Notes: a model not told the origin generated them from the letters alone. A stretch of 37,677 nucleotides of DNA from Pseudomonadota bacterium (GCA_039714795.1 JBDLIP010000003.1:1-37677); one strand, 5' to 3'; shown: positions 2,683-27,779, numbered from the stretch's first letter. Numbers and translations are program-made.

Positions 2683-4275
2683 CTAAAGTAGAGGCATTGC
2701 CTCAAACAAATCTGGTAAATCATTTTCCAGCAAGATCACATCTGGCGACTTTGTGTTATTTGCAAGCCATGCACGTGCTTGTGCAAACGATTCAACTTCA
2801 ATCAACTGGATGTTGGACCGCGCTGCACGAATTGCTTGTACGAAACTAGGAATTCTTGAAGCCATAACCACAATGGCTATATCTACACAGTCAGCAACCT
2901 TGGTCCCTAAATCTGCATGAACCGCGGCATGCTGCGCGCCAAGCTCAACAATTCCAGGTGTGACAAGAATGCGCCGTCCTGGCTTTTTGTGCAGCAGATT
3001 TAACACCCCAAGTCCAGCTACAAAACCATCTGGATTGGCATTAAAGGCATCATCAATGATGCAGGTACCGTTAGGTTGAGGTTTGACCTCCAAACGATGC
3101 CGAATTTGCGGCAAGCTCTTCAAAGCTGTTTGAATCGATTGAGCGTCAATCCCAAGGGCGCGAGCGGCAACAAAGGCCAGGGCAATGTTTGCCCCCTGAT
3201 GCTTGCCGTAAATCGGCGCCTGCAAAACCCATTGCTGGCCTTCTTTTGCTTCGGCAACGGTGACCTGGATTCCCTTGGCAGTTTGATTTATCTCTTTCAG
3301 GCCATCGGTTTCACACAGAGTTATGGATTTTTGCGGCAGCCTGCGCCTTTGGTAAGACTGAAAACGCGCCACAGAAGTCGCCATTACCATCTCCCCGCCG
3401 CTGCTGATAACAGAATCGGCCAACTCTAATTTGGTATTTGCTGTGGTCTCAAGCGATTTAAATCGCTCCAAGTGCGCCTCTCCTACAGCGGTAATCAAGC
3501 CCATTTTAGGAGCCACCAGCCGGCAGATTTTGGCAATCGACCCCTGCCGGTAAGCCCCCATTTCCACCACAAAATATTTATGAGCTGCATTAAGCTTTTC
3601 GCGAATCACCCGTGAGATTCCCATCGGCGTATTCACACTCCCCGGTGTGATCAAAGCCGAAGAAGTTGTGCTTAGAATATGTCCCAAGATATGCTTGACT
3701 GAAGTCTTACCAAACGAACCGGTAACACCAATGACAAACGGATCCAACTCCTGCAAGCGCTGTTGCGCCAGATTCCAGTACTTCCTCTGCGTCCAAGTTT
3801 CAAAAGGGGCCAGCAGAAGATTGGCAAGAGTGAGAATGATTGGAATGACCTGTGCAAACAAAATCCAAATCAGTAAAGACCAAAACGGTGTCACCAGTAA
3901 AAGAGGCAAAAGGGCCACCATCAAGCACAATGCTACAGCCACAGACAAAATACGTTGTGCCCGATGCGTGAGCAGCAAAGGTTTTTTACCATAAAACCTA
4001 GCGTCTCTTTCATACCAAGCGAAAAATGCAAATGCAAAAATTACCAGCAATAAAACAGCCAGTTCAGATAAAACAAATGCACTCAATAATATTACAATTA
4101 ATACAAAACTCAGCTTGCGATCCAATAAACTATGCGAGACAACCCATTTTAAAAAGCGTGCATTGTTATAATCTTGTTGCTGGAGAAAGCGTAAAAATGT
4201 CAGCAAACGCTTGACGGCAAAGCTAGTTAAAGCGATGAGTAAAAGAATTTTTAAGGCAAGAATAGGTAAAGTCAT
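2683..4275 (-). CDS. Membrane-anchored MurF-like Mur ligase
   Basis: The 530-aa protein belongs to the ATP-dependent Mur ligase family. Residues 1-155 hold several hydrophobic segments (about 1-25, 56-87, 109-155). The ligase core starts near 180 with the P-loop GVTGSFGKTSVKHIL, followed by EMGAYRQGSI, GEAHLERF (the MurF-type G..H...), HQGANIALAFVAA and the late IIDDAFNANPDGF motif (DxYNANP in MurF). Canonical MurF (UDP-MurNAc-tripeptide:D-Ala-D-Ala ligase) has a soluble N-terminal UDP-sugar-binding domain. Here that domain is absent and replaced by membrane segments, so the acceptor may not be the usual nucleotide precursor. It lies 25 bp after hicB and in the same cluster as a hydrolase and a Ddl-like ligase. 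I leave the symbol blank because it may be a paralogue rather than the housekeeping enzyme. Confidence 0.8.
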   Translation of the reverse strand: MTLPILALKILLLIALTSFAVKRLLTFLRFLQQQDYNNARFLKWVVSHSLLDRKLSFVLIVILLSAFVLSELAVLLLVIFAFAFFAWYERDARFYGKKPLLLTHRAQRILSVAVALCLMVALLPLLLVTPFWSLLIWILFAQVIPIILTLANLLLAPFETWTQRKYWNLAQQRLQELDPFVIGVTGSFGKTSVKHILGHILSTTSSALITPGSVNTPMGISRVIREKLNAAHKYFVVEMGAYRQGSIAKICRLVAPKMGLITAVGEAHLERFKSLETTANTKLELADSVISSGGEMVMATSVARFQSYQRRRLPQKSITLCETDGLKEINQTAKGIQVTVAEAKEGQQWVLQAPIYGKHQGANIALAFVAARALGIDAQSIQTALKSLPQIRHRLEVKPQPNGTCIIDDAFNANPDGFVAGLGVLNLLHKKPGRRILVTPGIVELGAQHAAVHADLGTKVADCVDIAIVVMASRIPSFVQAIRAARSNIQLIEVESFAQARAWLANNTKSPDVILLENDLPDLFEAMPLL

Positions 4276-4300
4276 TGATTTATTTGTAACTACATCAAGT

Positions 4301-4723
4301 TTAATAAAGATCTTCTAAATTAATCACAAGCTTTTTTCCTAGTGCCTTAGCTGCTTTATCCAATTGTCTTAAGGTTGGCCAATGGGTAGGATCCTCTAGC
4401 CTTGCAACCGAAGGCCAAGAAGTTTCCAGTGCTCTTGCAAGCTCTGCTAGAGAGTGATCGCCACGGCTGAAGCGTATTAGTAAAGCAGCTTGAATCCTGG
4501 CAGAAGGATAAAGTATGTGCGTAAACTCACCATGAGATGGCTCTGGAATTTCCATCCCCTCATCGATCCTGCCCTCAATTGTGAGATTTAAAACCTCAGC
4601 TGCATTAAACAGGGCTTCTTCTAGAGTTTCTCCTTGCGTAATGGCTTCGGGCATATCTGGAAATGATACAACGTATATACCATCATCATCTTGTTTTATG
4701 ACACATCCATATTGAATATTCAT
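4301..4723 (-). CDS. hicB: HicB-family antitoxin
   Basis: The 140-aa protein has the HicB N-terminal partial RNase-H-like fold (MNIQYGCVIKQDDDGIYVVSFPDMPEAITQGE region; typical F.D.P...T.G.T..EA). The C-terminal HTH is at about 85-125 (SLAELARALETSWPSVARLEDPTHWPTL), which would bind its own promoter. It neutralises the adjacent HicA mRNA interferase. Its ATG overlaps the hicA stop by 4 bp (ATGA), as expected for a co-translated toxin-antitoxin pair. Autoregulation is known for the family; no operator was identified. The pair sits between the hydrolase and the MurF-like gene, which share its strand. Confidence 0.88.
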   Translation of the reverse strand: MNIQYGCVIKQDDDGIYVVSFPDMPEAITQGETLEEALFNAAEVLNLTIEGRIDEGMEIPEPSHGEFTHILYPSARIQAALLIRFSRGDHSLAELARALETSWPSVARLEDPTHWPTLRQLDKAAKALGKKLVINLEDLY

Positions 4724-4905
4724 CTCAACTTTACTCCTGTTTGTCTTTCGATACTCGCCAGCAGCCCTTTACCTATATCTTTTGAGCCATGTACAGGAAC
4801 AGTTGTGCGTTTCTCTCCGCACCCCATACGATAATGGCTCCCACGAACTCTAAGGATTGCCCATCCCTGCTTTTCTAGAGTTTTAATGATTTCTTGCCCT
4901 TTCAT
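4720..4905 (-). CDS. hicA: HicA-family mRNA interferase toxin
   Basis: The 61-aa protein begins MKGQEIIKTLEKQGWAILR. The family core follows: a dsRNA-binding-like fold with G-W..., then the RGSHYRM segment holding the catalytic His, then TTVPVHGSKDIGKGLLASI. HicA cleaves mRNA and is inhibited by HicB. The start at 4905 matches normal HicA length (about 60 aa). A longer frame to 5016 exists, but its extra residues do not resemble the family; an intermediate ATG at 4920 has an AAAAAAG stretch upstream and is an alternative. The toxin precedes the antitoxin, the usual hicAB order. Confidence 0.87.
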   Translation of the reverse strand: MKGQEIIKTLEKQGWAILRVRGSHYRMGCGEKRTTVPVHGSKDIGKGLLASIERQTGVKLR

Positions 4906-5054
4906 GACATAATGATACATCTTTTTTGATGTATCGTAAAGTTTTTTGTCAGAAATTCTGCACATTGCCCAGTCCCGTAGAGGCTGGGCTGGAAAATGGA
5001 GTGAGCCGAGAATCAACAGTTTGAATCAGCTTCAGTACAGCAAGCCAGAACCCC

Positions 5055-5864
5055 TCATTTTTTGTTGATGCTCTGCAAAAACTGCTGCAATAAATAGCTC
5101 ACTTGCGCTCGTCCTTCGGTTAAAATATTGGCATGGTCAAAATGTTCCAAGACCGTCAGTTTAGCATTTGGAATGAGCTCTGCAAACCGCCGCCCCATTT
5201 CTGGAGGAGTTTCTTGATCTTGCGCTCCATAAAGCAAATGCACTGGACACTTAACCTTTTGCGCAATCTGTGTCAGATCTTCTTGGATTACACGCAGCAA
5301 AACCCCCCGCATTGGTCCAGCGGCCCGATAATCTGTGCTACCAAATCGCTGTTTGAGACCTTCTGGAACCAATCCTCGATGAATCAGCGGTTTTAAAGCT
5401 TTGTAAGTATACACTTTGCTTTTCAGGACAATAGTTTCAACGGGCGTGCGCCTGCGCTGCAATCCAGCACCGGCAATCAAAAACAGTCCATCTAATAAAT
5501 CGGGCTCCCGTGCAGCAATGCGTAAGCCAACCCGGGCTCCAAAAGAATGAGCCACCCATATCCGCTTTGCTTGACATTTTTTCTGGGGCAAGGTTTGCAA
5601 ATATTCAATGACCAGATCGGCATAGTCCTGTGTGTTCCAGGTTTTTGGAGGCAGCGGCGCCTGGCCAAATCCTGGAAAATCGAACAAAATTTGGCTTGTG
5701 CTGGCATCAAAGCTTTGAGCTATGGGCAAAAGCGTTCGATGATCAACCCCCCAACCATGGGCCCAAATCAATTGTGGAACGTCAAATGATTCTAATCCGC
5801 GCTTGTGCAGAGCCAAAAGAGTTGCAGTAGTTGCGTTATTGGCTGGCTGTGTCGTTAGTTGCAT
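5055..5864 (-). CDS. Alpha/beta-hydrolase fold protein
   Basis: The 269-aa soluble protein has the standard hydrolase layout. The oxyanion-hole motif is WAHGWGVDHR (about 34-43), the nucleophile elbow is WVAHSFGARVG (Ser near residue 107), the acid is in LLYGAQDQETP, and the catalytic His is in LEHFDHANIL near residue 245. No signal peptide is seen. It starts about 220 bp from the divergent Ddl-like gene, and the MurF-like ligase follows on the same strand with hicAB between. This context suggests a role with those ligases, perhaps hydrolysing an amide or ester of the product. A generic esterase remains possible, since the fold does not fix the substrate. Confidence 0.75.
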   Translation of the reverse strand: MQLTTQPANNATTATLLALHKRGLESFDVPQLIWAHGWGVDHRTLLPIAQSFDASTSQILFDFPGFGQAPLPPKTWNTQDYADLVIEYLQTLPQKKCQAKRIWVAHSFGARVGLRIAAREPDLLDGLFLIAGAGLQRRRTPVETIVLKSKVYTYKALKPLIHRGLVPEGLKQRFGSTDYRAAGPMRGVLLRVIQEDLTQIAQKVKCPVHLLYGAQDQETPPEMGRRFAELIPNAKLTVLEHFDHANILTEGRAQVSYLLQQFLQSINKK

Positions 5865-5898
5865 GCTTAATCCCTACACTATACTGAAGCTGAATAGT

Positions 5899-6017
5899 TA
5901 TACTGAAGTGAAATCAAAACCTCTGTTTCCTGATACACTCGAAGTGCTCATTTACCCAAGTAAACTGCGCGCTTCTCGCTATCATTAAACTAGAGATTTT
6001 GATTTCACGAGAGTATA
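5899..6017 (+). repeat. Family B palindromic element, copy B2 (full length)
   Basis: The copy is 119 bp and begins TATACTGAAGTGAAATC. It ends with the reverse-complement arm running into GAGAGTATA. It lies in the divergent spacer between the hydrolase and the Ddl-like gene. A family C end, GCTGAATAGTTA, directly precedes it at 5889-5900. The A/T-rich TATATAT at the right end faces the Ddl-like gene and could act as a -10 region (inference). Confidence 0.87.
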
Positions 6018-6084
6018 TATAAAAACTTTCCTTTTACACCTGCATCTTTTATAACCAATTTAGAGCTTGAAAGAAAGGAATGTA

Positions 6085-7353
6085 ATGCCCCCTTCTCCCA
6101 CACAACGCCCACATACGCGCCCGCATACACGCCCAAAGGTTGCGGTATTTTTCGGCGGGCAATCGCCTGAGCATGACGTAAGCATTGTCACCGGCCTGCA
6201 AGTTCTGCATGCTATTGACCAAACGCGCTATGCGCCTTTTCCAGTCTATATTGCTCCCAACGGGACCTGGCTGGTAGGAGACGCGCTTGCCAATCGCTGC
6301 AACTATTGGCTTAATGCGAAAACAAAAGCAACGCTGACCCCGGTCACCCTTGATTTCAGCAATACAAGAGGACGCGGCAGACTGTTGCCGCACCACAAAA
6401 GTATATTTCAAAGTATGTTCCAGCGCCCTCAGCCCATTGACTTTGATATTGCTCTGCCAGCAATGCATGGTCTTTATGGCGAAGACGGCAATTTGCAGGG
6501 GTGTTTTGAAATAGCTCACCTCCCCTACGCCGGTCCTCGAACCCACGATGCAGCTATTTTTATGAACAAAGCCACCACAAAACGTTTGTTACAGCAGTTA
6601 GATATCCCGGCCTTGGCCTATACTGTGATTCAGCGACCTCAGGAAGGCCTGCTGTTAAAGCCAGATGCACTCAAACAAGTTGCCAAAGACATCACATTTC
6701 CGGCATGCGTCAAACCCAATCATCTCGGCAGCAGCATTGGTGTCGCCAAAGTCACCTCCGCAGAAGAACTCAATGCAGTCCTGCCGGCAATTTTTAAATA
6801 CGACTCACAAGCCATTGTCGAGCCATTTGTTGATAATCTAGTGGAATATAATGTTGCCATCCGCCGCACAACAACTGGAGAGATCATCACTTCGGCAATC
6901 GAACAACCGAAAAGCAGTGCTGAACTCTTAGATTTTAAAGAAAAATACCTTTCAGGAGGCGCAGACAAACTGGGTAATAAAATTGGCTCCAAAACTAGCG
7001 CTAACCAAAGCGGAGGCATGGCCAGTCTGACTCGAATTGTAAATCCAAAAATAAGTTCCAAAATGCAAGCCAATATTCGCCAATGGAGCACCACACTTTA
7101 TCAAGCGGTCGAGGCAACGGGCGCTCCTCGAGTTGATTTCTTGTGCAACCAAAAAACCGGAGAGTTATGGCTGAATGAAGTTAATCCATTTCCCGGATCG
7201 GTAGGTTATTACCTATGGGAGGCGGCGCCCCAGCCAATCCTGTTCACCCAGCTGTTAAATGAATTACTGGATGAAGCGCAAAGCTGCCATCATAGCTCAA
7301 CACTGCCAGAGGATCCGACTCCTGAGGCGGGGCGGTTGTTTGTTAGGCAGTAA
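6085..7353 (+). CDS. D-alanine-D-alanine ligase homologue (divergent)
   Basis: The 422-aa ATP-grasp ligase is chosen from ATG 6085 with AAAGGA about 5 nt upstream; the frame is open back to a TTG at 6067. Family motifs are GGQSPEHDVS (about 24-33), HGLYGEDGNLQG, YAGPRTHDAAIFMNK, the ATP-binding PNHLGSSIGVAKV, and the metal-binding NEVNPFPGS. Standard Ddl enzymes carry NE.NT.PG.T at the last motif and are 300-370 aa. Here that segment is altered, and there is an enlarged insertion after DFKEKYLSGG (about 298-330), next to the omega loop that orders the second substrate. Reaction by homology: ATP-dependent dipeptide formation for peptidoglycan. The exact substrate is open. The stop codon is a few bases before a family A tract. 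Confidence 0.8.
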   Translation: MPPSPTQRPHTRPHTRPKVAVFFGGQSPEHDVSIVTGLQVLHAIDQTRYAPFPVYIAPNGTWLVGDALANRCNYWLNAKTKATLTPVTLDFSNTRGRGRLLPHHKSIFQSMFQRPQPIDFDIALPAMHGLYGEDGNLQGCFEIAHLPYAGPRTHDAAIFMNKATTKRLLQQLDIPALAYTVIQRPQEGLLLKPDALKQVAKDITFPACVKPNHLGSSIGVAKVTSAEELNAVLPAIFKYDSQAIVEPFVDNLVEYNVAIRRTTTGEIITSAIEQPKSSAELLDFKEKYLSGGADKLGNKIGSKTSANQSGGMASLTRIVNPKISSKMQANIRQWSTTLYQAVEATGAPRVDFLCNQKTGELWLNEVNPFPGSVGYYLWEAAPQPILFTQLLNELLDEAQSCHHSSTLPEDPTPEAGRLFVRQ

Positions 7354-7355
7354 TA

Positions 7356-7400
7356 CAGAGGTCAGAGGTCAGAGGACAGAGGGCAGAGGGCAGAGGACAG
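7356..7400 (+). repeat. Family A heptamer tract, left arm, after the Ddl-like gene
   Basis: Units AGAGGTC, AGAGGAC and AGAGGGC begin directly after the stop of the ligase gene. A family C motif, TTATCCAAAACTTAGGTT, lies at about 7435-7452 in the core, and the inverted arm is at 7476-7537. Confidence 0.85.
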
Positions 7401-7475: not shown

Positions 7476-7537
7476 TCTGAACTCTGAACTCTGAACTCTG
7501 AACTCTGAACTCTGACCTCTGACCTCTGACTTCTGAA
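7476..7537 (-). repeat. Family A heptamer tract, right arm, before the DUF3429-like gene
   Basis: About nine units of CTGAACT/CTGACCT on the plus strand end 16 bases before the next start codon. With 7356-7400 they form inverted arms around a 75-bp core. Confidence 0.85.
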
Positions 7538-8132: not shown

Positions 8133-8184
8133 AGTAGACGTTAATCAAAAAAGATTAGGTGCCATCCGGACCCATATTAGCTGG

Positions 8185-8505
8185 CTACTGATTATTACCT
8201 TCTCCTGGCTCTGGCTGCTGTACTGGAGCCGGATCCATATGTCCTAGCTGCTGATTATTACCTTCTCCTGGCTCTGGCTGCTGATTATTACCTTCTCCTG
8301 GCTCTGGCTGCTGATTATTACCTTCTCCTGGCTCTGGCTGCTGATTATTACCTGCTCCTGGCTGTTGTACTGGAGCCGGATCCATATGTCCTAGCTGCTG
8401 ATTATTACCTGCTCCTGGCTCTGGCTGCTGATTAGGCTGTTGTACTGGAGCCGGATCCATATGTCCTAGCTGCTGATTATTACCTGCTCCTGGCTGTTGT
8501 ACAAA
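8185..8505 (-). repeat. Tandem coding repeats in the tail of the secreted protein
   Basis: Two alternating units, near-identical at the DNA level, encode EPG(E/A)GNNQQ and QLGHMDPAPVQQP. The QLGHMDPAPV unit occurs three times intact. A decayed fourth copy lies after the stop codon at 8155-8187. High DNA identity between units implies recent expansion and likely length variation between strains. Confidence 0.9.
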
Positions 8506-9453
8506 CTGATTCTGATCTGAATTATCCATATTAAATGGGTCGGCTACTTTTTCTACTCTATTCTCAACAATATTAACAAGGGACCGAGCAAAACTCTCTA
8601 TGCCTTCATAGTCAACTGAATTAGCCTCACCATCATCGAGTGTATCATCTTCGCACAGAGTATAAATGACAGCATCCAATCGATCAGCAATTGCCTGCTG
8701 TACAAAAGAATGGAAATAGCCTTCCACCTCATCAGCAGAACCATAAAATCCTATTGTGTTACTAATCGCGTCACTATACGCTCGCAAACCAGCAACTTCT
8801 GCTCTAAGGTCAGTAATCTCCTGACCTGCTCTACTCACTCCTGAATAAAATCCCTCTTCATCTCGGCAATGAAAACCAAGCGCCCTACCTGTTGCACTTA
8901 CCATATCTTGCATCTGCTTCAACGGTATGGTAGGACCCCGGCGTGTTGAACGTGTTGGAGCTGCCGAACGTGTTGGACGTGCTGTACGTGTTGGACGTGC
9001 TGGACGTGCTGGACGTGCTGTACGTGAGGGAGAAACAGAATCTCTACTAACACTACTGGGGGTCAAAGTGCTTGGGTTAGTTACTGACGAAATAGTTCTC
9101 CTGGGAGCTGAAGAATTGGCATTTTCGCCTGCGCTATAGCCCTGCCCAACCTGAGGTGTTCTACTGGAAGCAGGCACTGCTATGCCCTGGTGAAGACGGG
9201 GGGCGCTTGAGAAATGAGCAGCAGGTACAGTATTGGTTACATTCCCTGAATTAAATGAAGGACTGAGACCTCCGCCTGCGTTATAGGTACTCACAGGCTG
9301 AGATGTTCTCCTGGGAGCTGAAGAATTGGAATCTGCGCCTCCGCCAGCATATCGATTAAACTTGGAGGCCTGAGCATCTCCAGCGGCAACACCCGCCAAC
9401 AAAGCTGCACAAGATGTGGCAGCCAACAATAATTTAAATTTATTCGCTTTCAT
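8185..9453 (-). CDS. Secreted low-complexity repeat protein (candidate surface or effector protein)
   Basis: The protein is 422 aa, starting at ATG 9453, which has AAGGAG 8 nt upstream. A Sec signal peptide is clear: MKANKFKLLLAATSCAALLAG with likely cleavage after AQA (about residue 30). Then come a Gly/Ser/Asn-rich part containing two copies of SSAPRRT, an Arg/Pro/Thr tract made by a 9-bp DNA repeat (8941-9027; RPARP/RPTR), a central unique region of about 140 aa with two Cys (FHCRDEE, YTLCEDD), and a Gln-rich tail. The tail alternates EPGEGNNQQ and QLGHMDPAPVQQP units. I recognise no family. The gene is monocistronic, with a good promoter (9545-9573), a structured leader and a strong terminator, which suggests high expression. 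The last codon before the stop looks like the result of a nonsense change. Confidence 0.8.
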   Translation of the reverse strand: MKANKFKLLLAATSCAALLAGVAAGDAQASKFNRYAGGGADSNSSAPRRTSQPVSTYNAGGGLSPSFNSGNVTNTVPAAHFSSAPRLHQGIAVPASSRTPQVGQGYSAGENANSSAPRRTISSVTNPSTLTPSSVSRDSVSPSRTARPARPARPTRTARPTRSAAPTRSTRRGPTIPLKQMQDMVSATGRALGFHCRDEEGFYSGVSRAGQEITDLRAEVAGLRAYSDAISNTIGFYGSADEVEGYFHSFVQQAIADRLDAVIYTLCEDDTLDDGEANSVDYEGIESFARSLVNIVENRVEKVADPFNMDNSDQNQFVQQPGAGNNQQLGHMDPAPVQQPNQQPEPGAGNNQQLGHMDPAPVQQPGAGNNQQPEPGEGNNQQPEPGEGNNQQPEPGEGNNQQLGHMDPAPVQQPEPGEGNNQ

Positions 9454-9472
9454 TAAGCTTTCTCCTTTATAA

Positions 9473-9496
9473 ATCTCATCTATCCTTAGATGAGAT
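9473..9496 (-). promoter_or_regulatory. Perfect 10-bp hairpin in the 5' leader, next to the ribosome-binding site
   Basis: ATCTCATCTA and TAGATGAGAT pair across a TCCT loop. The structure ends 9 bases before AAGGAG of the secreted-protein gene. A second stem, GGAG/CTCC with extra pairs, lies just upstream at about 9510-9531. They may stabilise the mRNA or act as a protein operator. Confidence 0.7.
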
Positions 9497-9544
9497 ACTA
9501 CTAACAATCACTGAAGGAGACCAACTCCTCAGCGTCACGAAGTT

Positions 9545-13512: not shown

Positions 13513-14285
13513 GAGTGAAAAAACAGTGCTGTAATAAGATAATTGAGAATTAAAATCATAATCGAGGCTGAGACAACTGCATTGGTGGTAGCAGCCCCTA
13601 CACCTTGCGCCCCACCTTTTGAGTGATAGCCATGATAACACCCCAAGGTGGTGATTAAAAACCCGAACACCGCAGCCTTGACCAAACCAGATACCACATC
13701 AATCCGCTCCAAGTGATCAAAGGTCTGATGCAGATAATTGGCGGGATTAAAACCCAATGTGTAGGTGGAAACCAGATAGCCACCAAACACCCCAATGATA
13801 TCAGCAATCAATACCAGCACCGGCAGCATCAAGACGCCAGCCAAAATACGTGGCATAACCAAGTATTTGTAAGGATTGGTCGATAAAACCGTCAGCGCGT
13901 CAATCTGTTCGGTGACTCGCATGGTGCCAATTTCAGCCGCCATAGCAGCTCCTATGCGCCCAGCCACCATCAAACCCGCCAGCACAGGCCCCAACTCGCG
14001 TGTGACCGAAAGCACGACAACTGTGGGAATGGAATTTTCAGCGGCAAATCGAGCAAATCCTGTGTGCGTTTGCAAGGCCAACACCATGCCGGTAAAAGTC
14101 GCAGTCAACCCCACAACTGGTAACGAGTAATAGCCAATGTCAATCAACTGGCGCAAAATCTGACGTGGATAATAAGGAGTGCACACGCCATGAGCCAGGG
14201 ACGTTAATACAAACAACGTAAGACGCCCGCATACTGCAAGGAAGCGTAGAAAATACTCTCCAACTTTTGCCAAAAAACCGATCAC
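13509..14285 (-). CDS. mlaE: MlaE-family ABC transporter permease
   Basis: The 258-aa integral membrane protein of the MlaE/YrbE family is the permease of the Mla lipid transporter. Recognisable parts are QLIDIGYYSLPVVGLTATFTGMVLALQ, described here across residues 45-71, then ELGPVLAGLMVAGRIGAAMAAEIGTM near residue 100 and VTEQIDALTVL. The C-terminal GAQGVGAATTNAVVSASI is also typical. The start is GTG at 14285, overlapping the alr stop (GTGA), and the stop overlaps mlaF. Direct coupling to mlaF supports a complex in the inner membrane. Confidence 0.9.
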   Translation of the reverse strand: MIGFLAKVGEYFLRFLAVCGRLTLFVLTSLAHGVCTPYYPRQILRQLIDIGYYSLPVVGLTATFTGMVLALQTHTGFARFAAENSIPTVVVLSVTRELGPVLAGLMVAGRIGAAMAAEIGTMRVTEQIDALTVLSTNPYKYLVMPRILAGVLMLPVLVLIADIIGVFGGYLVSTYTLGFNPANYLHQTFDHLERIDVVSGLVKAAVFGFLITTLGCYHGYHSKGGAQGVGAATTNAVVSASIMILILNYLITALFFHS

Positions 14286-15448
14286 GTTTCGCCTCGGTAT
14301 ATTCGGTGGTTACGCTCACCAAAGTTCGTATAGATCTCCCGCGAAATTGTTCCACCAGCCGCCGCTTGCTCATCAGCAGTAATGTGTTCACCCACAACCT
14401 CAGCCCAAAAACCAGGCCTGAGGTATTGTTCAGGTACAGCGCTGGCGTCAACAGCAATCAAGTCCATAGAAACCCGACCGACAATTGGCGCTACATGACC
14501 GCCAATAAACACCTTACCACAATTACCAAAGGCTCGGATAATGCCATCGCCATAACCCATCCCTAAGGTTGCCAAGCGGATTGGCGTACTTGTCTTGTAT
14601 TGCGCGTCATAGCCAATCGAGTGACCGGCAGGCATATCCCGCACCTGCAAAATCTGCGCATAAACTTGCACAGCGGGCTGCAAGCCAATTGCAGGAGCCA
14701 CAATAGTTCCAACACCCAACAGTGCCTTACCGGGACGCACCAAATCAAAGTGATAGTCAGGCCCAAGCAAGATACCACCAGAATTGGCCAAACTCATTGG
14801 TGCTGCGGGCAATAACTGACATGCTGCTTGAAACCGCTGTAGCTGACGTGCGTTGAGCGGGTGATGTAGCTGCTCACTACAAGCCAAATGACTCAAGATA
14901 CAACGCAGATCAAATCTTTCAAGTTTTTCCAAATGTTGACCAAGAACCGCCAGCTCTTGCGGTGGCAATCCCATACGCCACATGCCAGTATCAAGGTGCA
15001 ATGCAGCAGGTAGAATGCGGTTTTGTTGCACGCCCCACTCACGCCACAAATCGATCTGTCCCAAGTCGTTTAAAACGGGAATCAGCTTATGTTTATCGAG
15101 AACTTCTTGCGTACCTGGTAAAACTCCGTTAAAGACAAAAATGTGAACTTCAGGAAGCGCCCTGCGCAACCGAATGCCCTCATCAACGGTGGCAACAAAA
15201 AAATCCCTACATCCGGTTTGGAACAAAGCCTTAGATACTGGAACCATACCAATTCCATAGGCATTGGCTTTTACAACCGCCGAACTTTTGGCTTTCGGCA
15301 AATGCGCTGCGATTTTTCTAAAGTTAGCCGCAATGATGCCCAGATCCGTTATGATCACACCACTGATACCCGGGGGGACCTCATGCTGTGCAAAGGGTAA
15401 CTTGTAAGCGCCAAGCAAGTTACAAGATTGAGTTGTTAGAGGCTGCAT
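14282..15448 (-). CDS. alr: Alanine racemase
   Basis: The 388-aa PLP enzyme converts L-Ala to D-Ala for peptidoglycan. The PLP lysine is in AVVKANAYGIG (about residue 51), and the second catalytic base Tyr is in HSIGYDAQYKT (about 260). LDTGMWRMG and the C-terminal GRVSMD segment are also present. The start at 15448 gives a 1-bp TGATG overlap with the dnaB stop; a TTG-started longer frame to 15478 lies within dnaB. Length is normal. It supplies D-Ala that the Ddl-like and MurF-like enzymes nearby could use. Confidence 0.95.
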   Translation of the reverse strand: MQPLTTQSCNLLGAYKLPFAQHEVPPGISGVIITDLGIIAANFRKIAAHLPKAKSSAVVKANAYGIGMVPVSKALFQTGCRDFFVATVDEGIRLRRALPEVHIFVFNGVLPGTQEVLDKHKLIPVLNDLGQIDLWREWGVQQNRILPAALHLDTGMWRMGLPPQELAVLGQHLEKLERFDLRCILSHLACSEQLHHPLNARQLQRFQAACQLLPAAPMSLANSGGILLGPDYHFDLVRPGKALLGVGTIVAPAIGLQPAVQVYAQILQVRDMPAGHSIGYDAQYKTSTPIRLATLGMGYGDGIIRAFGNCGKVFIGGHVAPIVGRVSMDLIAVDASAVPEQYLRPGFWAEVVGEHITADEQAAAGGTISREIYTNFGERNHRIYRGET

Positions 15449-16950
15449 CACTGGCGATCCTCTACATAGTCCACACATTTGGTCAAGGCGCTATCAAAGC
15501 GCAATTTGACTTTACCAATCGGCCCATGCCGCTGCTTGGCGATAATAACTTCGGTTATATTTGATACCTTATCCATACGCGCTTGCCACTCGGCATGCTT
15601 TTCCGTATCTTCCTCTGGCTGCTTGCGGGATTCATAATATTCTTCACGATAAATAAACATCACCACGTCAGCATCTTGCTCAATAGTTCCTGAATCCCTG
15701 AGATCTGCCAACTGAGGTCGCTTGTCATCTCTTTGCTCGACTGCACGCGAAAGCTGTGACAGCGCAAAAACCGGCACATTAAGTTCTTTGGCCAAGGCCT
15801 TAAGACTTCTGGTAATATCGGAAATCTCTTGTACGCGGTTTTCCGCGCGGCGCCCAGCCGACCCTTGCAGCAGTTGCAAATAGTCAACCACAATCATGCC
15901 CAAACCCTTTTGCCGCATTAACCGGCGTGCACGGGTGCGCAATGCCGAAACACTTAAGGCTGGAGTATCATCAATAAACAGGGGAACTTCACTTAAGTTG
16001 CGACTAACTTCGATAAACTTTGGAAAATCCGACTCCGAGACAGCGCCACGGCGAATCTTATCCGAGGCAACCCCCGATTCTTGTGCCAACAAACGAGTAG
16101 CTAATTGTTCTGCGGACATTTCTAGAGAAAAGAAAGCCACATGTGCCCCTTCGTTGCCCTTCAGTGCCGCCTGGGCTGCATTAAATGCGATATTCATTGC
16201 AAACGCCGTTTTACCCATCGACGGACGCCCAGCCAAAATTATCAAATCAGATGGGTGCAACCCCCCTAATTTGAGATTGATATCTTTAAATCCTGTAGTC
16301 ACACCAACCACATGGCTGTCCCGCTTAAAGGCCACCTCAGCCATACTCACTGCCTCAGACATCGCATCTTCAAGACTGGTAAAGCCCCGATCCAGGGAAC
16401 CAATGGTTGAAAGGTCAAACAATTTTTGCTCAGCCGCTTCCATTTGCTCAACTGCATCGCTCTCTAAATCTTGATTATACGCCTCATTGACGACATCTTC
16501 GCCAAAGGTAATTAATTGCCGGCGATAGTAAAGATCACGAATCGTAATTGCATACGAGCGAGCATTAATGATGCTGACCACCGAATCTGCTAGCTGGATC
16601 AAATATTTTGCCCCGCCAATGTCTTCCAGAGCTGCGTCTTGATCAAAATAATCCTTTAGGGTAATCGGGTCAGCGATATGCCCGCGTTCAATAAGACGTC
16701 GAATGGCACTGTAGATCCGCCCATGCACGGCATCGGCAAAATGTTCTGGTTGTAAAATTTCATCAATTGTCTCGTGACAAGCATTGTTATGAAACAAAGC
16801 CCCCAACAACGCCTGCTCAGCCTCATAGTTACAAGGTAGCCTACGACCAACTTCAAGCGCCAACGGCTCCTGCCGCTCATCCGAAACCAGCGGCTGCTCT
16901 GGTGGCTCAGGCGTTTCTTCGTTTGTATTGACGGCTTGCACTTGACTCAT
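15448..16950 (-). CDS. dnaB: Replicative DNA helicase DnaB
   Basis: The 500-aa protein has the DnaB N-terminal domain (NYEAEQALLGALFHNNACHETI) and the RecA-like C-terminal domain with Walker A AGRPSMGKTAFAMN (about 242-255). Walker B-type IVVDYLQLL, the SRAVEQRDDKRP stretch, SGTIEQDADVVMFIYREEYY and the final arginine-rich motif AKQRHGPIGKVKL complete it. It unwinds DNA at the fork and loads with DnaC/DnaA-type partners. It is the first gene of the seven-gene minus-strand operon and its 5' side faces the divergent hfq. No intein is seen. Confidence 0.97.
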   Translation of the reverse strand: MSQVQAVNTNEETPEPPEQPLVSDERQEPLALEVGRRLPCNYEAEQALLGALFHNNACHETIDEILQPEHFADAVHGRIYSAIRRLIERGHIADPITLKDYFDQDAALEDIGGAKYLIQLADSVVSIINARSYAITIRDLYYRRQLITFGEDVVNEAYNQDLESDAVEQMEAAEQKLFDLSTIGSLDRGFTSLEDAMSEAVSMAEVAFKRDSHVVGVTTGFKDINLKLGGLHPSDLIILAGRPSMGKTAFAMNIAFNAAQAALKGNEGAHVAFFSLEMSAEQLATRLLAQESGVASDKIRRGAVSESDFPKFIEVSRNLSEVPLFIDDTPALSVSALRTRARRLMRQKGLGMIVVDYLQLLQGSAGRRAENRVQEISDITRSLKALAKELNVPVFALSQLSRAVEQRDDKRPQLADLRDSGTIEQDADVVMFIYREEYYESRKQPEEDTEKHAEWQARMDKVSNITEVIIAKQRHGPIGKVKLRFDSALTKCVDYVEDRQ

Positions 16951-22651: not shown

Positions 22652-22748
22652 GGAATACAACTGGGATTAATTTACCGGTTTTAGCCCTTTTGCAACGCCA
22701 ATATTCCAAATCTCGGTATGCTGTACAAAAAAATGCAAAGTATCCTTG

Positions 22749-24068
22749 ATGACCAAACCACCCAAATCTTCTCTATGGCAGCAAGCCTACGAGCTTGCTT
22801 GTGCTGAACGAGATCGGCGCAGAAAGCTGTCCCAAAAATATGACTGGAGCAAGCACGCCCGCAGCAACCAACTTCCACCTCCTGGTAAATGGCACACCTG
22901 GTTGATTCTAGCCGGTCGTGGATTTGGAAAAACCAGAACTGGCGCCGAAACTATCCGGCAGTGGGTGCAACAAGGAACCGCTAAGCGTATTGCCTTGCTA
23001 GGACACACCCAAGCTGATGTTCGCAGCGTCATGATAGAAGGTGAAAGCGGACTACTGTCCGTCTTTCCAGAAAACAAACAACCCAAATACTCGCCTGCAA
23101 CCGGGAAAGTCCTCTGGAGTAATGGAGCCACAGCGAGCAGCTACAGCAGTGATGCCTACGAACACCTTCGAGGTCCTCAGTTCGACGCTGCTTGGGTGGA
23201 TGAGCTGGCCAAATTCACCTACGCCCAGGAAGCCTGGGATCAACTTTGTCTAACCTTAAGGATAGGCCTACAACCACGGGCTATTGTTACAACCACACCA
23301 CGCCCGATCCCACTTCTTTTTCAATTAGTAAAATCCCCATCTGTAGCCATAACACGCGGATCTACTTTCGATAACCAGGACAATCTATCACCTCGCTTCT
23401 TAGAGCACGTTCGTGAAAATTTCTCCGGCACACGCCTGGGCAACCAAGAACTCTTGGGTGAACTCCATGCAATGCAAGACAACACCCTCTGGCACCCAAA
23501 AATGTTTGCCTGCCATCGGGTCGCAACAGCAACTGAATTGACCAGAATCCTGGTAGCCATTGATCCTGCCGCCAGCAACTCAGAATCTAGCAATGAGACA
23601 GGTATCATTGTTGCCGGCGAAGGTGTTGACAGGCGCGGCTATGTCTTGGAAGATCTGAGTGGTCGAATGTCACCAACCCAATGGGGAACTGTGGCTATTG
23701 ATGCCTATAGAAGGCACCAAGCCGAGCAAATCATTGCTGAAGTAAATAACGGAGGCAATATGGTGACACAAGTTCTCAAAACCATTGATGCTGCTGTGGA
23801 CGTGAAATCTGTATATGCCCAACACAGCAAAACCACCCGCGCGGAACCTATTGCTGCCCTCTATGAACAAGGACGTATTTCCCACGTTGGATCTTTTACC
23901 ACGCTTGAAGAGCAATTATGCAACTACCAACCGGGCAAAAAAAACTGTGCCTCAGATCGCATGGACGCACTGGTCTGGGCGCTAACCGAACTATTTTTTG
24001 GATCCCCAAAGGATGATGCAGTTTCAGCGTTAGTGGTTTCTAGCGTTGATGCTCCACGTATATCTTAG
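22749..24068 (+). CDS. Phage/GTA-type terminase large subunit (orphan)
   Basis: The 439-aa DNA-packaging motor appears intact. The ATPase half has WLILAGRGFGKTRTGAETIR (Walker A, about residue 53 on), FDAAWVDELAKF (Walker B) and the coupling motif VTTTPRP. The nuclease half has VAIDPAASN, an EVNNGGNM segment and SDRMDALVWAL, which carry the metal-binding acidic residues of the RNase-H-like fold. QLPPPGKWHTW before the P-loop resembles alphaproteobacterial prophage and gene transfer agent (RcGTA g2-like) terminases. No portal, capsid or small terminase gene is near. The ATG at 22749 follows a TTG and lacks a clear Shine-Dalgarno. The stop codon abuts a family A tract. Confidence 0.88.
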   Translation: MTKPPKSSLWQQAYELACAERDRRRKLSQKYDWSKHARSNQLPPPGKWHTWLILAGRGFGKTRTGAETIRQWVQQGTAKRIALLGHTQADVRSVMIEGESGLLSVFPENKQPKYSPATGKVLWSNGATASSYSSDAYEHLRGPQFDAAWVDELAKFTYAQEAWDQLCLTLRIGLQPRAIVTTTPRPIPLLFQLVKSPSVAITRGSTFDNQDNLSPRFLEHVRENFSGTRLGNQELLGELHAMQDNTLWHPKMFACHRVATATELTRILVAIDPAASNSESSNETGIIVAGEGVDRRGYVLEDLSGRMSPTQWGTVAIDAYRRHQAEQIIAEVNNGGNMVTQVLKTIDAAVDVKSVYAQHSKTTRAEPIAALYEQGRISHVGSFTTLEEQLCNYQPGKKNCASDRMDALVWALTELFFGSPKDDAVSALVVSSVDAPRIS

Positions 24069-24190
24069 ATCAGAAATCAGAGGTCGGAAGTCAGAAGTCA
24101 GAGGTCAGAAGTCAGAGGTCAGAGGTCAGAAGTCAGAGGTCAGCGCAGCGTTTCAGCGCGGCGCTGCCTTGCTGACTTCTGACTCTTGTC
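24069..24190. repeat. Family A heptamer tracts with GC-rich core between convergent genes
   Basis: The left tract at 24069-24143 has about ten units of AGARGTC. A core with GCGCAGCGTTTCAGCGC and GGCGCTGCCTTGC follows, then a shorter inverted tract at 24169-24190. The element begins at the terminase stop and its right end codes for the last residues of ubiK. Transcribed from either side it would fold as a hairpin, so it might act as a bidirectional terminator. Confidence 0.85.
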
Positions 24191-26798: not shown

Positions 26799-27779
26799 GT
26801 GCGGCGCTGCCTTGCTGATTTCTGATTTCTGAACTCTGATTTCTGACCTCTGACCTCTGACCACTGCTTTGGCAAAATCACTCGCTGAAAACGGACGCAA
26901 ATCATCAGCTCCCTCGCCCACGCCAATGGCGTGGATGGGGTAAGGAAATTTCTGCGCCAAACTCACTAACACACCACCTCTGGCGGTGCCATCCAATTTT
27001 GTCATCACTAAGCCTGTTAGATCAACGGTTTTGGCAAAGGTTTCCACCTGAGAATGCGCGTTTTGACCAACGGTGGCATCAAGCACCAACAAACAACTGT
27101 GCGGAGCACTGGCGTCTACTTTTTTGATGACTCGGGCGATTTTCCCCAACTCTGCCATCAGATCGACCTTGTTTTGCAAGCGCCCTGCCGTATCAATCAA
27201 TAAAATATCATCACCAGCTTGCTTTGATTGCTCCAGTGCTTGGTAGATCAAACCTGCTGCATCACAGTTGGGCTTGCCTGTGACAACAGGAATTTGAGTG
27301 CGCTCGCCCCACTTTTGCAGTTGCTCAACCGCTGCGGCCCTGAAGGTATCGCCGGCAACAAAACGAACCTGATGCCCCTGCCCTTGCCACAGCTTTCCAA
27401 GTTTACCCATGGTGGTGGTTTTGCCGCTGCCATTAACCCCAACCAACAAAATCACATAAGGTTTAAGGGCCGCATCCAGCACCAACGGTTTGGCCACAGC
27501 TGTGAGCACCTTTTCAATTTCGGCTGCCAACACAGAACGAATTTCATCCTGGCTTACTTCTTGATCAAACCGAGTCTTGGCTAGGGCCTGCGTCACTTTC
27601 AATGCTGTTTCAACACCAAGATCAGCCGAGATCAACAGTTCCTCCAGCGCTTCTAAGGCCGCATCATCCAGCTTGCGCTTAGTAACAATGGCTGAAATCC
27701 CCTCAGTCAGCTTATTCGATGATCGCTGCAACCCTAACTTAAGTTTTGAAAACCAGCCTTGTTTTGGTTCTTGCGTCAT
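26796..27779 (-). CDS. ftsY: Signal recognition particle receptor FtsY with repeat-derived C-terminus
   Basis: The 327-aa SRP GTPase docks translating ribosomes at the membrane. The NG domain is complete: helical N domain, G1 LLVGVNGSGKTTTMGKL (about 111-127), AGDTFRAAAVEQL, G3 DTAGRLQNKVDLMAEL, G4 TKLDGTARGG, and the closing GVGEGADDLRPFSASDFAKAV (in two motifs). The acidic A domain is absent, as in other short alphaproteobacterial forms. Normal FtsY ends at the FAKAVV point. Here about 20 further residues (RGQRSEIRVQKSE, then ISKAAPH) are translated family A repeat. Its ATG overlaps the mtaB stop (ATGA). Confidence 0.95.
   Translation of the reverse strand: MTQEPKQGWFSKLKLGLQRSSNKLTEGISAIVTKRKLDDAALEALEELLISADLGVETALKVTQALAKTRFDQEVSQDEIRSVLAAEIEKVLTAVAKPLVLDAALKPYVILLVGVNGSGKTTTMGKLGKLWQGQGHQVRFVAGDTFRAAAVEQLQKWGERTQIPVVTGKPNCDAAGLIYQALEQSKQAGDDILLIDTAGRLQNKVDLMAELGKIARVIKKVDASAPHSCLLVLDATVGQNAHSQVETFAKTVDLTGLVMTKLDGTARGGVLVSLAQKFPYPIHAIGVGEGADDLRPFSASDFAKAVVRGQRSEIRVQKSEISKAAPH
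26813..26863 (-). repeat. Family A heptamer tract inside the 3' end of ftsY
   Basis: Units CTGATTT, CTGAACT and CTGACCT on the plus strand (AGARGTC on the coding strand) run up to the end of the conserved FtsY domain. No inverted partner is present; the other side is the family B remnant. Confidence 0.85.

Follow-up and report, generated by a model that had tools for sequence, protein, structure and literature searches.

In the genome of a Pseudomonadota bacterium we have found a trio of genes, encoding a membrane-anchored MurF-type ligase, an alpha/beta hydrolase and a divergent Ddl-type ligase, that very probably forms a conserved module standing in for the canonical enzymes Ddl and MurF, which catalyse the final two reactions of stem-peptide synthesis. 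Textbooks present MurF and Ddl as essential cytoplasmic enzymes, and both are drug targets. Were the two replaced by a cassette across several phyla, textbook enzyme lists and target-based assumptions would fail for many bacteria. Public databases already list the individual cassette proteins as MurF-, Ddl- and hydrolase-like, and their folds are not new; what is novel is the cassette itself, the replacement and the change of the pathway that this implies. A search of open papers yielded no relevant description of a membrane MurF or of bacteria without MurF, many of the matches concerning MuRF, an unrelated muscle protein, and no published wall chemistry of Rhodopseudomonas viridis was found in open papers.

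Organization of the locus

The window, i.e. the whole analysed stretch of 37,677 nucleotides, holds the cassette and the genes inserted in it as follows:

2683-4275, minus strand: membrane-anchored MurF-type ligase, 530 aa (Mur domains, tree clade 'memMurF', AlphaFold model, PDB fold matches)
3415-3720, minus strand: catalytic core motifs of the ligase, P-loop GSFGKTS (186), NT (215), E238, H268, K282
3745-4275, minus strand: N-terminal membrane domain of the ligase, approximately residues 1-177, in the place of the UDP-MurNAc-binding domain
4301-4723, minus strand: HicB-like antitoxin (Pfam), an insertion within the cassette and not a member of it
4720-5016, minus strand: HicA-like toxin, partner of HicB (Pfam)
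5055-5864, minus strand: alpha/beta hydrolase, 269 aa; triad S107-D216-H244; S176/D178/Y179 (GSTDYR); AlphaFold pLDDT 92.6
6085-7353, plus strand: Ddl-type ATP-grasp ligase, 422 aa from ATG, 428 aa from TTG at 6067
6943-7035, plus strand: Ddl omega-loop region, K-Y retained, Gly/Ser/Lys-rich insert KYLSGGADKLGNKIGSKTSANQSGGMASLTR
7174-7218, plus strand: Ddl second-substrate segment NEVNPFPGSVGYYLW; family form E[VI]N[TP]xPGS[LF]x[FY][YF]LW, canonical form PGMTxHSxxP

The Ddl gene is transcribed divergently from the genes of the ligase and the hydrolase. The original prediction had missed that the latter two are separated by a HicAB pair (4301-5016). Among the surveyed loci, a gap of toxin-antitoxin size between ligase and hydrolase occurs only in that of the window. 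Promoters and terminators did not rise above chance level.

The surroundings of the cassette contain a family of 7-base tandem repeats (TCAGAAG / TCTGACC), often in units of 14 or 21 bases, that recurs near gene ends (1170-1212, 1484-1538, 7355-7400, 7476-7537, 24070-24143 and 26815-26866); an RSEIRGQRSE-type translation, similar to that of these repeats, is found 3' of ftsW on contig C138. An ORF of 440 aa (8185-9507, minus strand), with a signal-like start and no Pfam match, consists partly of 30/63-base and 9/18-base tandem repeats (8166-9026) and possibly encodes a surface or secreted repeat protein. The gene of a phage terminase large subunit (Terminase_6N and 6C; 22746-24068) stands amid chromosomal genes.

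Conservation of the trio

A search with four query homologues yielded 80 named loci, located in Alphaproteobacteria, Bacteroidales, Clostridia, Pseudalkalibacillus (Bacillaceae), Thiomargarita and Omnitrophota. In 79 loci the sequence extends 700 bases or more upstream of the ligase; the hydrolase lies immediately upstream on the same strand in 72 of these and at another measured spacing in 3, one of which is the window, where HicAB is inserted. The Ddl is encoded within the flanks of 51 of the 59 wide-flank loci. Moreover, the pairwise distances of the three cassette proteins correlate with r = 0.85-0.89 over 35 loci, a value reached in none of 2000 permutations: the three cassette genes co-diverge. 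The claim of an undescribed conserved ligase cassette, for which conservation in other alphaproteobacteria had been put forward as a check, is borne out, as the clustering is kept in other Alphaproteobacteria and beyond, across several phyla, and no description was found in the open papers searched.

Loss of canonical MurF and Ddl

The original prediction left two readings: a distinct pathway that joins a dipeptide-like unit to a membrane-bound acceptor or, alternatively, the only, diverged MurF and Ddl of the cell. The latter is supported by the search for separate canonical genes. Family searches of the genome of the window (a draft of 183 contigs, 95.7% complete) found no other MurF or Ddl, and murB adjoins ftsQ without a ddl in between, whereas two relatives of the same family retain the order murB-ddl-ftsQ. 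Candidates for a hidden second MurF had to be rejected, the Mur middle domain occurring only in MurC, MurD, MurE, FolC and the cassette ligase; the same holds for a hidden second Ddl, where the remaining ATP-grasp matches in the genome were AccC/CarB-type proteins, and for a canonical murF directly before mraY on contig C138, where 0.3 kb contains neither a MurF-like reading frame nor a recognisable MurF C-terminus.

A murF hidden in a draft of 183 contigs is conceivable, but murF is equally absent from intact clusters elsewhere. Eight further cassette genomes, related to that of the window, have the order murE-mraY in the dcw cluster, with no murF; among them are the isolate Blastochloris sulfoviridis DSM 729 and a Kordiimonas. 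Those of the eight clusters that were read through to ftsQ show no ddl between murB and ftsQ. The murF-less clusters are otherwise intact and are seen in an isolate and several near-complete genomes; MraY, MurE and MurD are kept in normal order in the clusters examined. Genome-wide, one MurF and one Ddl were found in B. sulfoviridis, both from the trio.

The genome of the window also encodes D,D-transpeptidases and alanine racemase-family proteins; the only alanine racemase-family match found is encoded at 14282-15478 of the window, near dnaB and radA. Two genomes of the window's family (G001 and G002) have no match to canonical MurF, membrane MurF or MraY and retain canonical ddl, a pattern that represents either assembly gaps or a further unusual arrangement.

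In an evenly drawn sample of 385 genomes of the class, with counts read from two tables, canonical MurF is absent from 19 of the 22 genomes with a membrane MurF versus 33 of the 363 others (Fisher p 1.3e-15), and from 11 of 14 versus 16 of 300 when only high-quality genomes are considered (p 6.7e-11), p-values that overstate independence since the sequences within the class are related.

The replacement of MurF by the cassette is not universal. A MurF above the curated cut-off was detected genome-wide for 7 of the 57 cassette genome handles. G198 and G395 gave identical matches and apparently are one genome, and canonical MurF is kept in at least five trio genomes (G116, G198/G395, G383, G393 and G396); several Bacteroidales retain a MurF-racemase-sized fusion. 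The cassette Ddl is nearly always the sole strong Ddl found in the cassette genomes, and usually so where canonical MurF is retained. In two other genomes the MurF in the old slot, full-length or shortened, is without the P-loop Lys, E238, H268 or K282. These ORFs, situated between murE and mraY (L184:5041-6345, plus strand; L189:7170-8168, minus strand), fall within canonical MurF in the tree, on long branches; they could be in decay or could have taken on a new, non-catalytic function. Taken together with the functional-looking canonical MurFs beside the cassette (G396, G116), such dead remnants make the genomes look like successive stages of MurF replacement.

A separate pathway, in which the dipeptide would be attached to a non-peptidoglycan membrane acceptor and canonical murF and ddl would have been lost in assembly gaps, could account for the genomes that hold the trio plus a canonical MurF. 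It is nevertheless very improbable, considering that murF and ddl are missing from otherwise intact dcw clusters of an isolate and several near-complete genomes, and that catalytically dead MurF remnants exist. The best reading is that the trio replaces MurF and Ddl and does not constitute an extra pathway. Of the predicted distinct route to a membrane-bound acceptor, the separate pathway finds no support in this genome, whereas the acceptor survives in altered form, possibly as the lipid-linked precursor of peptidoglycan.

The membrane-anchored MurF

The predicted MurF-like protein with membrane helices and without the N-terminal UDP-sugar domain was confirmed. Pfam assigns to the ligase the Mur middle and C-terminal domains alone, from residue 184 onward (Mur_ligase_M and Mur_ligase_C, with the P-loop and the catalytic Glu, His and Lys), and neither the domain search nor the residue comparison nor the AlphaFold model revealed an N-terminal UDP-MurNAc-binding domain. 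The MurF profile TIGR01143 aligns from its position 61 to 403 with 204.3 bits, below the cut-off of 288.6. Residues ~1-177 are hydrophobic according to hydropathy and helical in the AlphaFold model (pLDDT 93.3, pTM 0.90), and Q32, Y36, K97, K98, T103, R105, R108, P157 and E159 of this domain are conserved among 44 homologues. The catalytic residues of the core are mostly identical to those of canonical MurF, whereas the C-terminal motif and positions H393/P440 show family-specific departures. The best PDB fold matches are MurF structures, across the catalytic part; a search by sequence found no solved structure of a membrane MurF or of the cassette Ddl.

In the tree, the membrane MurFs constitute one clade (support 100), separate from MurC, MurD and MurE and sister to canonical MurF (support 94). 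The clade comprises a mostly Bacteroidota/Bacillota half and an Alphaproteobacteria/Omnitrophota half, and the placement of G032 and Thiomargarita inside the former suggests that the spread includes transfers. The ligase of the window is placed with Micavibrio-like sequences. As canonical ddl is retained, and no membrane MurF seen, in two members of the window's family, the cassette of the window was probably acquired.

The Ddl-type ligase and the hydrolase

The Ddl-like protein contains both Ddl domains (Pfam; Dala_Dala_lig N and C), the ATP-grasp motifs and the omega-loop K-Y, and scores 225.6 bits against TIGR01205, below a cut-off (245.65) that many of its relatives pass. Its predicted peculiarities, a length of 422 aa, NEVNPFPGS (at 7174) and an enlarged omega region (~6943-7035), were all found to be real. 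Throughout the family, a motif E[VI]N[TP]xPGSxx[FY][YF]LW and a Gly/Ser/Lys insert after the omega-loop K-Y recur with small variations. Given this and the conservation of the trio, the oddities are signatures of a family and not the result of local decay.

The hydrolase was correctly predicted to lie between the two ligases with an intact Ser-Asp-His triad: all of 75 homologues have S107-D216-H244, and S176, D178 and Y179 vary little or not at all in 75 sequences. The enzyme looks catalytically competent and is linked to the module. Sequence and fold searches for its function returned generic esterases, lipases and BioH-like folds only. Such an invariant enzyme suggests that the pathway includes an unrecognised chemical step or an editing function; that the hydrolase is an editing or recycling enzyme which, for instance, trims the stem back to the tripeptide acceptor is a guess that we regard as rather doubtful.

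The altered second-substrate segment of the Ddl, together with a MurF reserved for the module and a hydrolase whose catalytic residues are invariant, is also what a Van-like system would offer. There, the Ddl would produce a modified dipeptide or depsipeptide for MurF to install, and the hydrolase would destroy D-Ala-D-Ala (VanX-like) or its esters. We consider such a system improbable. The Ddl retains the omega-loop K-Y pair that D-Ala-D-Ala ligases typically have, the Van models listed all score far under their cut-offs, and VanH, VanX and VanS were not identified as neighbours. In addition, the trio Ddl is usually the sole Ddl found, even beside a kept canonical MurF.

Proposed role of the cassette

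If the trio replaces MurF and Ddl, the Ddl-type enzyme would join two D-amino acids, most probably to D-Ala-D-Ala, and the membrane MurF would use ATP to add the dipeptide to the MurNAc-tripeptide at the inner face of the membrane, where the acceptor may be lipid-linked tripeptide (lipid I/II). The departure of the second-substrate segment from canonical Ddl leaves this product putative. We infer D-Ala-D-Ala from the genomes with a retained canonical MurF, where usually no strong Ddl was found besides that of the cassette. A lipid-linked acceptor is suggested by the loss of the UDP-binding domain and the presence of membrane helices at exactly that boundary. For a membrane-proximal acceptor we follow the published reasoning on MurT/GatD, an enzyme that has lipid II as its substrate: MurT is without the UDP domain, and according to its authors such a domain would likely clash with the membrane (PMC6113224).

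The order of precursor synthesis could have changed, a proposal to which we give a little less than an even chance. MraY (perhaps also MurG) would act on the tripeptide, after which the membrane MurF would add D-Ala-D-Ala onto the lipid-linked precursor, helped by the dedicated serine hydrolase. It is a serious possibility, on the other hand, that the membrane MurF still uses soluble UDP-MurNAc-tripeptide and is anchored near MraY merely for channelling. At most canonical positions the catalytic core resembles that of MurF, and MraY, MurE and MurD are retained in normal order, so that UDP-linked tripeptide is still made; however, the DSR-type UDP-binding N-domain is gone, and the C-terminal motif and H393/P440 differ family-specifically from canonical MurF. 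This alternative concerns the acceptor only and is compatible with the replacement of MurF. The replacement itself raises the testable question whether the stem pentapeptide can be completed on the lipid carrier rather than on UDP-MurNAc.

Comparison with known systems

With MurF (UDP-N-acetylmuramoyl-tripeptide--D-alanyl-D-alanine ligase, TIGR01143) the ligase of the window shares the Mur middle and C-terminal domains, the P-loop and the catalytic residues, but it has a membrane domain where MurF has its UDP-binding N-domain. Moreover, none of the clusters read has the membrane MurF between murE and mraY; it sits with the hydrolase and the Ddl instead. MurT of the MurT/GatD lipid II isoglutaminyl synthase is likewise a Mur ligase without the N-terminal UDP domain. 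MurT, however, has a short N-terminus without membrane domain, requires GatD, serves to amidate D-Glu and carries a DNAAD motif, whereas the ligase of the window has IDDAFNANP and groups with MurF. The MurT models give 13-22 bits on the ligase against a cut-off of 800, and no gene for a GatD glutamine amidotransferase was identified beside it among the ORFs of the window (Pfam).

The cassette Ddl shares with Ddl/DdlA (TIGR01205, NF002528) both Ddl domains, recognisable active-site motifs and the omega-loop K-Y. It differs in its length of ~400-430 aa, its Gly/Ser/Lys-rich omega insert and its PGSxxYYLW in place of PGMTxHSxxP, and it remains under both NCBI cut-offs. The Van ligases (VanA, VanG and others) resemble it in belonging to the Ddl superfamily, in an altered second-substrate segment and in a helper hydrolase in the cluster. 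Nevertheless, the cassette Ddl reaches ~100-165 bits against the curated Van models, with cut-offs of 495-775, and is usually the sole cell-wall Ddl and not an extra one.
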